A stretch of 64,000 nt of DNA. Origin: Mesorhizobium sp. 131-2-1. Its GTDB lineage: Bacteria; Pseudomonadota; Alphaproteobacteria; Rhizobiales; Rhizobiaceae. Below are positions 22,303 through 23,575 of the stretch, one piece after another. The first letter of the stretch is position 1. Each line of letters begins with the position of its first letter. The notes under the pieces are model-generated. The model was not told the DNA's origin. It did not search any database and saw only the letters and a program-made list of their open reading frames with translations. The position numbers and the translations under genes were made by a program. The stretch spans positions 868,001 to 932,000 of the forward strand of contig NZ_AP023247.1 of the NCBI RefSeq assembly GCF_016756535.1, in the 5' to 3' direction.

Positions 22303-22332
22303 TCGTCATCCTCGGGCTTGACCCGAGGATCC
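22303..22332 (+). repeat. Dispersed palindromic repeat, family B, left part, split by IS110 element
   Basis: tcgtcatcctcgggcttgac followed by ccgaggatcc. It matches 43442-43472 of the intact copy, then breaks at ggatcc where the insertion sequence starts. The rest of the repeat resumes at 23446 with atgccgtaac, so the empty site would have read GAGGATCC-ATGCCG. 30 nt here plus 130 nt beyond gives 160 nt, against 164 nt for the intact copy. Confidence 0.88.
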
Positions 22333-22360
22333 TGTGTGTTTGCTCAGTGCTATGGTTGAA

Positions 22361-22497
22361 GTGGGAAGGAGGCCGAGAGGATCCTGGTCGTCCCTTCGAG
22401 GACAGGCCGCGGCATGGCTCGGTCCCTTCCCACCAATGAACCATCAACCTGAACAGTTGCACGGGGCTGTCTTCAGCAGACCCCGCACCACAGGAAG
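22361..22497 (+). ncRNA. Predicted bridge RNA of the IS110 element
   Basis: A long stem gtgggaagg...ccgag (22361-22377) with ctcgg...ccttcccac (22418-22433) encloses a target loop. In it gaggatcc (22377-22384) repeats the left target sequence plus core CC, and cggcatgg (22410-22417) is the reverse complement of the right target ccatgccg. A second stem cggggctg/cag-a-ccccg (22462-22485) is flanked by acagttgc (22453-22460), identical to the element's right end, and cacagg (22489-22494), the reverse complement of core CC plus the left end TGTG. This is the four-guide layout known for IS110 bridge RNAs. Exact ends are inferred. Confidence 0.75.
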
Positions 22498-22501
22498 AGG
22501 C

Positions 22502-23434
22502 ATGGCCATGATAGTGCAGAACTATGTCGGCTGCGACATCTCCAAAGCGAGGCTCGACTTCTTTGATGAGGCAAGCGGCCGCTACCAGCGGATCGCCAAC
22601 CAGGCTGAAGCGATAGAAGCCTATGTGGCAGGCCTTTGCGCTGGTCGTGACTTCGTTGTCATGGAGGCGACCGGGGTCCATGACCGGCTGCTGCGCCATG
22701 CGCTGGGCAAGGCCGGCATTGCGTTCTCGCGGCACAATCCGGCGCACACCCACCACTACGCGAAGTCGGCGACCCAGCGCGCCAAGACCGATCGTCTCGA
22801 TGCCCGGATGCTGAGCAGCTACGGTCGTCGCTACCAGCCTGCGGCCGAGGCGGCACCTTGCGAGAAAGGCGAACGCCTTCAGTCGCTTGCCCGCCACCGC
22901 GACCATCTTGTTGAGATCCGGGCAAGGTTGAAGAGATATCTCAGCGAGGCCTTCGATGAGGACGTCATAACCGAGACTGAAAGTCTGATCGCCGACTTCG
23001 ACACACGCATCGATGCACTCGAAAGCCGGATTGCCAAAGCCATTCGCGAAGCCGAGGACACCGCTCTCGACTACACGCTGATGGTCTCTGTACCAGGCGT
23101 CTCCACCATCACCGCGCTTTCGCTGCTGGCCCACATGCCCGAGCTCGGCCGGCGCTCGCCCAAGTCGATCGCGGCACTTGCAGGCCTTGCCCCGCTCGAC
23201 AACGAGAGCGGCAAGGCCAAGCGCAAGAGCAAGATCAGCGGTGGCCGCCCGCGCGTGCGCCGCGCCCTCTACATGGCGGCGCTGGGCGCCATCCGCGCCA
23301 ACGATCGCTTCAGAACTTTCTACACTGCGCTCGCCGCGCGCTCCGGATCGAAGAAACTTGCCATCGTCGCTGTCGCAAGGAAGCTCCTAGTCACTCTCAA
23401 TGCCATCATTCGAGACAAAACGGCCTTCGCATGA
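22502..23434 (+). CDS. IS110-family transposase (DEDD recombinase)
   Basis: 310 aa, complete. The N-terminal RuvC-like domain has the four acidic residues: Asp12 (YVGCDISKARLD), Glu55 (VVMEATGVHD), Asp97 and Asp100 (KTDRLDARML). The C-terminal Transposase_20 domain has VPGVSTITALSLLAHMPELG, AALAGLAPLDNESGKAK and GGRPRVRRALYMAAL; Ser236 in NESG is the likely nucleophile by position relative to IS621. Start could be ATG 22502 or 22508. The stop is only 9 nt from the element's right end, so all non-coding sequence is on the left, where the predicted bridge RNA lies. Confidence 0.93.
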   Translation: MAMIVQNYVGCDISKARLDFFDEASGRYQRIANQAEAIEAYVAGLCAGRDFVVMEATGVHDRLLRHALGKAGIAFSRHNPAHTHHYAKSATQRAKTDRLDARMLSSYGRRYQPAAEAAPCEKGERLQSLARHRDHLVEIRARLKRYLSEAFDEDVITETESLIADFDTRIDALESRIAKAIREAEDTALDYTLMVSVPGVSTITALSLLAHMPELGRRSPKSIAALAGLAPLDNESGKAKRKSKISGGRPRVRRALYMAALGAIRANDRFRTFYTALAARSGSKKLAIVAVARKLLVTLNAIIRDKTAFA

Positions 23435-23445
23435 ACACAGTTGCC

Positions 23446-23575
23446 ATGCCGTAACAGTTGCCGAGGAACGCGGCGGAACAGAATTCCTGCACCGCTGCGG
23501 CGCTTTGACGTCACGGCATGGATCCTGGGGTCTGCGCCGCGTCGCTTCGCTCCTTGCTTCGCCCCAGGATGACGA
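23446..23575 (+). repeat. Dispersed palindromic repeat, family B, right part, beyond the IS110 element
   Basis: Starts atgccgtaacagttgccg and ends gccccaggatgacga. The arm acggcatggatcctggggtc followed by tgcgccgcgtcgcttcgctc matches the right arms at 29647-29709 and 43537-43605. Together with 22303-22332 it makes a full copy. Confidence 0.88.

Follow-up and report, generated by a model that had tools for sequence, protein, structure and literature searches.

The closest described systems are IS621 and ISCro4, insertion elements in which a DEDD/Tnp recombinase acts with an RNA from the long left end, the target is a repetitive extragenic palindrome (REP), and the bridge RNA has one loop for the target, with left and right target guides, and one for the donor, with left and right donor guides. 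In this work we analysed a window, that is the whole stretch of 64,000 nucleotides at positions 868,001 to 932,000 of contig NZ_AP023247.1 of Mesorhizobium sp. 131-2-1, in which an IS110-group insertion element of 1113 bp lies at 22333..23445 (this and all features below are on the + strand). The element resembles IS621 and ISCro4 in all of these respects, the RNA being predicted here, and also in a left donor guide that stops with the first base of the core and, if the prediction holds, in a promoter at the junction of the joined ends; as far as sequence can tell, its leader specifies a bridge RNA like those of IS110/IS621 elements, a class already described. It differs from IS621 in its core dinucleotide, CC instead of CT, and in that no clear stem-loop was found at the 5' side of the target loop, and its protein is a distant relative of those of IS621 and ISCro4 (E about 1e-23 in the PDB). 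Two other systems are close. ISRm19, an IS110 element of Sinorhizobium meliloti published in 2006, lies in REPs in 4/4 copies (PMC1525189) and is, by description, a similar rhizobial IS110, whereas the passages of PMC1525189 drawn on here do not consider a guide RNA. The seekRNAs of IS1111/IS110 elements, made from a non-coding region, pick the target, and ISPa11 targets REPs (PMC11187229), which is what we predict for the present element; however, in the IS1111 members the RNA lies downstream of the gene, whereas here it would lie upstream, in 169 nt, the right end being only 11 nt past the stop codon. The best explanation of the locus as a whole, to which we give a probability of about 0.93, is an IS110 element with a circular form, a junction promoter, a bridge RNA and strand exchange at CC. 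Computation establishes the element, its ends, its guides, the RNA structure and the covariation between guides and DNA.

The Mesorhizobium genome (7.1 Mb) holds six copies of the element, the window copy and five more, with the same ends (TGTGTG...ACAGTTGCC) and different flanks, which fixes its limits. Five of the six copies are 1113 bp long. All six lie in the same REP palindrome, [gt]ag[ag]atcc/atgcc (the slash marks the place of the element). In the window, the left half of this target, gacccgaggatcc (22320..22332), is the same or similar to the left of the other own copies, with the intact site present elsewhere, while the right half, atgccg (23446..23451), is found at the own copies and at uninterrupted genomic sites; the shared core CC stands at both edges, at 22331-22332 and 23444-23445. 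The empty site GAGGATCCATGCCG occurs uninterrupted 13 times in the genome, indicating that insertion duplicates nothing of the target except the shared CC, and a looser unoccupied site, GRATCCATKCCG, occurs 61 times. The long left non-coding end (169 nt) and the short right one (11 nt after the stop codon) form the layout of the IS110 group, and short subterminal TGTGT/ACACA motifs were spotted by eye. The sixth copy (G000:C1:958980-959635; 656 bp) has an internal deletion that leaves both ends and the leader, so that the enzyme of the other copies could mobilise it as a non-autonomous element. The donor word acagttgcc recurs in the right flank of the window copy (23454-23462), two bases past the target half, a position at which the flanks of the other five own copies read differently.

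The gene at 22502..23434 encodes a DEDD/serine recombinase (transposase) of 310 amino acids, with domains PF01548 and PF02371. The only PDB matches to this product at E up to 0.001 are ISCro4 (E=3.7e-24) and IS621 (E=1.2e-23). Its motifs VGCDISK, MEATG, KTDRLDA and NESGK align with those of IS621 and ISCro4, and the catalytic residues D, E, D, D and S, as defined for IS621 (PMC11208158), are all present, so that on sequence grounds the element is a member of the IS110 group of the IS110 family. The region 22334-23434, which includes the leader, is open in frame with the transposase, and automatic annotation may therefore push the protein start upstream into the guide RNA.

The initial annotation had proposed four guide segments in the leader, and all four lie at the coordinates it gave, each matching its own DNA. 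The left target guide GAGGATCC (gaggatcc, 22377..22384) equals the left target plus core; the right target guide CGGCATGG (cggcatgg, 22410..22417) is the reverse complement of core plus right target; the left donor guide ACAGTTGC (acagttgc, 22453..22460) equals the right end of the element; and the right donor guide CACAGG (22489..22494) is the reverse complement of core CC plus left end. The corresponding right donor guide in two CT-core sets (G134b and G019b; L and G numbers are our handles for loci and genomes) is CACACAAG. Left and right guides run in opposite senses, which is what pairing with both DNA strands demands. The last base of the left donor guide is the first base of the core, and an A comes next, exactly as in the left donor guide of IS621 (A123-C130, then A131; PMC11208158). 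When the leader was dinucleotide-shuffled 20,000 times, the left target, right target, left donor and right donor words occurred singly in 183, 80, 65 and 2,677 cases; two or more words occurred in 44 shuffles, and all four in 0.

The guides are placed in a conserved structure. Since RNAalifold finds no compensatory pairs within the close family alone, distant leaders were added, and a consensus was drawn from RNAalifold and pair counts on 14 leaders (four close-family and ten distant). It consists of one target loop and one donor loop, with 97.1% of cells paired and double changes in 11 of 32 pairs. The covariation score and the count of double changes were reached by 0/500 shuffles, nor were they reached by sliding the partners. 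The target-binding stem-loop (22361..22433) has an outer stem 22361-22375/22420-22433 and an inner stem 22386-22389/22405-22408, and the two target guides occupy the two sides of its internal loop; the stem claimed earlier thus exists but had been drawn too long (22361-22377/22418-22433), the consensus having two bases less per side. The donor-binding stem-loop (22448..22494) is closed by CCUG/CAGG (22448-22451/22491-22494) around an inner stem 22462-22469/22477-22485. The donor guides, previously described as flanking a hairpin, do stand beside that hairpin but are more than flankers, as they form the two sides of an internal loop; the closing strand 22491-22494 overlaps the right donor guide. 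A fold started at the left end of the element pairs that end with the donor region; it is probably misleading, since the RNA should begin after the -10 box.

Evidence for programming comes from distant relatives. Outside the genus, we searched the family (394 genomes, E up to 1e-60) and the order (397 genomes, E up to 1e-55), which, besides the window's own genome, gave matches in five and six genomes, respectively. The left targets of ten CC-core relatives read, in part, GGATCC, AGGATCC, GGATTCC, AGGCCCC, GGGCCCC, GGATCCC, GGGTCCC or GGTCCCC (L124 lacks the right end and flank, and L125 the left flank, both here and in the covariation runs). We compared each left target guide with its own left target over 12 elements, 11 of them distant (transposases about 40-56% identical), limiting the guide search to leader positions 40-58. 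The agreement is 81/84 bases, nine elements being exact and three (L123, L124 and L131) having one difference; 0 of 200,000 re-pairings reach it (mean 63, maximum 78), although such permutation counts are not strict probabilities, the elements being interrelated. A first run with 10 elements had given 67/70 bases, a value reached by 1/200,000 re-pairings, and the two elements added afterwards, from plasmids of Sinorhizobium medicae and Agrobacterium tumefaciens, match at 7/7 left and 5/7 right bases. These two (L143 and L144) came from 45 plasmid records, of which eight were read; L150 is a second S. medicae copy, and L146, L148 and L149 were left out because they are not CC-core, L145 and L147 because they are poly-C. 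In the latter two (from Sphingomonas and Shinella, respectively), the left target and the left guide are both runs of C, a cheap match that was not counted.

A further comparison used eleven other Mesorhizobium IS110 sets, whose ends were read from two or three copies each (the single copies L078-L081 were read but unused). Eight families, one of which (G078) has unlike cores at its two edges, were retained from 14 rows after dropping near-duplicates. When guides were swapped among families, the own pairing was reached in 2 of 40,320 permutations for all four guides, in 36 for the target guides and in 2 for the donor guides; taken singly, the figures were 348 (left target), 120 (right target), 4 (left donor) and 136 (right donor). 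The comparison of guide changes with insertion-site changes among homologues, which the initial annotation had named as a check, comes out in favour of its proposal for the left target guide, which over the 12 elements changes with the site instead of staying the same in disagreement with the flanks, the outcome that would have spoken against the proposal; the idea of an RNA programmed for its own insertion site with core CC is supported by guide-target covariation, by donor pairing and by RNA covariation.

Closer to the window, 13 other genomes of the genus hold another 27 copies, whose left end and donor guides are identical to those of the window element. Together with the six own copies they form a close set of 33, fragments at contig ends (for example in G013, G067 and G096) being left out; the right end was located in 25 of the 27, and two unreadable right ends leave 31 copies for the right side. 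The sequence [GA]ATCC stands on the left in 32/33 copies. Over its final six bases, the left target guide matches the site exactly in 24/33, differs only by a guide G on a target A in 6/33 and otherwise in 3/33. A guide G on a target A would be an rG-dT wobble pair, and in IS621 an rG:dT pair is found at often-used sites (PMC11208160). In G105 the guide is GAATCC and so are five of six sites, which fits, but in G047 the guide is GGATCC with GAATCC at three of four sites, so that covariation within the close family alone is not clean. On the right side, the guide of L068 is altered in step with its altered target (attccg).

Several observations nevertheless weigh against the leader being a programmed bridge RNA. 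The right target guide gives weaker support than the left one: of 200,000 re-pairings, 2,076 do as well as the own pairing over six bases and 4,579 over seven, and 17,476 did so in the first run (10 elements, wider search stretch). This guide matches just 4-5 of 7 bases in half of the twelve elements (L123, L127, L130, L135, L143 and L144), and L143 shows one mismatch between its left end and the guide for it. Among the close copies, the right target guide over seven bases is exact in 19/31, with one difference in 11/31 and two in 1/31, and the usual guide is kept in 12 copies that have an altered right target (six in G105 and six others), where it meets a base with which it does not pair. On the left, L053 lacks GGATCC, and L062 and L068 are one base off the target. 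The donor guides and the ends are invariant in the close family, so that donor covariation is absent there, just as the close family shows 0 compensatory pairs in RNAalifold. One of the five covariation measures of the 14-leader alignment, the number of further pair types, was no better than shuffles (318/500). Finally, the Rfam search returned a single sub-threshold miRNA match, by chance and inside the gene. Two of these loci show peculiarities. In L053 (G074), ggagacc stands on the left where the REP predicts ctaggatcc, which may be a deletion or an aberrant insertion. In all six G105 copies (L058-L063), a T of the right target is opposite a C of the guide; this position is unpaired throughout, which the element evidently tolerates.

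The two features that set this element apart from IS621 recur in its relatives. In the close set, CC stands at the left edge of 33/33 copies and at the right edge of 31/31 readable ones; it is also the core in 10 of the 11 other genomes from the family and order searches, with both edges read in eight. The exception, G521, has a CT core, with the target TCATCCT/CGGG and the guides TCATCCT and CCGAG. The cores of the eleven other Mesorhizobium sets are CT in seven, AT in two, and TT on the left with CT on the right in two. In IS621 and its orthologues the second core base is nearly always T, which touches the main chain of G63, while cores GT, AT and TT are functional as well (PMC11208158). We looked for recombinase residues that differ between CC and CT elements: the close family has an unchanging V and H after EATG, but the distant CC elements do not, and the EATG glycine, taken as the equivalent of IS621 G63, is kept, so that a protein cause of the CC core was not found among these residues. 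In a transposase tree of 28 rows (L130-L135 left out), the window family groups with L123 (99/98), and L124 with L125 and L127 (88/84); the tree neither firmly joins nor firmly separates these two groups.

Concerning the 5' stem-loop, we folded only the part of the leader that precedes the target loop. Its energy is 0.0 to -7.4 kcal/mol in 13 CC-core leaders, among them that of the window, and -0.8 to -4.9 kcal/mol in 12 of 13 additional close leaders, compared with -11.6 to -37.8 kcal/mol in 12 non-CC leaders; part of this difference is accounted for by length, as the CC stretches are 16-33 nt long and the non-CC ones 36-65 nt, and the 5' end of the transcript is predicted. Whole-leader folds show a 5' hairpin also in L098, L102, L092, L100, L107 and L086, and the L109 fold is no better than shuffles. 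The number of top-level domains was rejected as a test for a 5' stem-loop, because it is one in 13/13 CC-core leaders and also in 7/12 non-CC leaders, where the fold nests the hairpin, and therefore discriminates poorly. A single close leader, L073 (G051), folds strongly before the target loop (leader 10-43, -12.9 kcal/mol), and the TGA in its transposase frame suggests that this copy may be decaying. A natural RNA that lacks this stem-loop is plausible, since IS621 tolerates removal of the 5' stem-loop, with lower RNA binding and slightly lower recombination (PMC11208158).

These observations lead us to favour, by a modest degree, the idea of a widespread alphaproteobacterial IS110 set that recombines at CC and whose bridge RNA is minimal, with two loops, about 140 nt and no 5' stem-loop, the second core base, regarded as fixed by a protein contact in IS621, having changed in nature together with the guide bases that read the core (left target, right target and right donor). 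A check of open-access literature text suggests that the CC core and the compact RNA are what is new here; neither a CC core nor a bridge RNA that lacks the 5' stem-loop was recognised in that text, in which these features were not searched by name, and a prior description is possible. That both are common in IS110 elements and merely unstated in texts is a real, if less probable, alternative, to which the structural diversity of predicted bridge RNAs (PMC11208160) and the scatter of the CC-core elements found here over many genera lend weight.

By analogy with IS621, the circle, the transcript, complex formation and recombination at CC can be pictured as follows. The element would excise as a circle, the joined ends of which would rebuild a promoter, as in IS621, where the promoter is likewise formed at the circle junction (PMC11208160). 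The predicted -35 box TTGCCT would be composed of the right end and the first base of the left end (23441-23445 plus 22333), separated by a spacer of 17 from a putative -10 box, TATGGT (22351..22356), read from sequence only; of its bases, A, T and T recur in 13, 12 and 12 leaders, respectively, out of 14 (L124 being without a visible right end). A bridge RNA of about 140 nt, roughly 22358-22500, would result, one internal loop of which would pair with the two strands of GAGGAT-CC-ATGCCG, the REP target, and the other with the circle junction ACAGTTG-CC-TGTG, and protomers of the recombinase would swap strands at the shared CC.

A different view is that the recombinase, not the RNA, reads the REP, and that the guide-like words are remnants of REP and end sequences copied into the leader. 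REP-specific insertion is known for ISRm22, of the IS4 family (PMC1525189), and nearly all close relatives of the window element are at one REP, which would fit; yet the left guide starts 44-46 nt from the left end in 10/10 elements, inside a covarying stem-loop, it changes with the target in distant relatives, and the opposite sense of left and right guides is that needed for pairing with two strands, so that we regard this explanation as very improbable. It is just as improbable that the leader serves to regulate transposase translation in cis, a role ascribed to the small RNAs and 5' leader of ISPpu9, with the matches secondary: the right donor guide does adjoin a likely ribosome-binding site, cacaggaagaggcATG, but a regulator need not follow the target sequence, and the left guide does. 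Such regulation may exist alongside the role as a guide.

Bridge RNAs are programmable means to insert, invert or excise DNA; the natural CC-core set suggests that the second core base can be changed too, and supplies recombinases and shorter guide RNAs for comparison. The covarying guides also suggest a reason for the location of these elements in REPs, each RNA being written for part of a repeat that is present dozens of times, as the 61 unoccupied sites illustrate. In this context, other IS110 lineages with AT and CT cores (L087-L089 and L093-L095 in G047 and G135; L126, L128 and L129 in G521) appear to have as targets other parts of the same REP palindrome, gaggAT/GACG and TCATCCT/CGGG, so that a single repeat seems to be divided among several guide RNAs.
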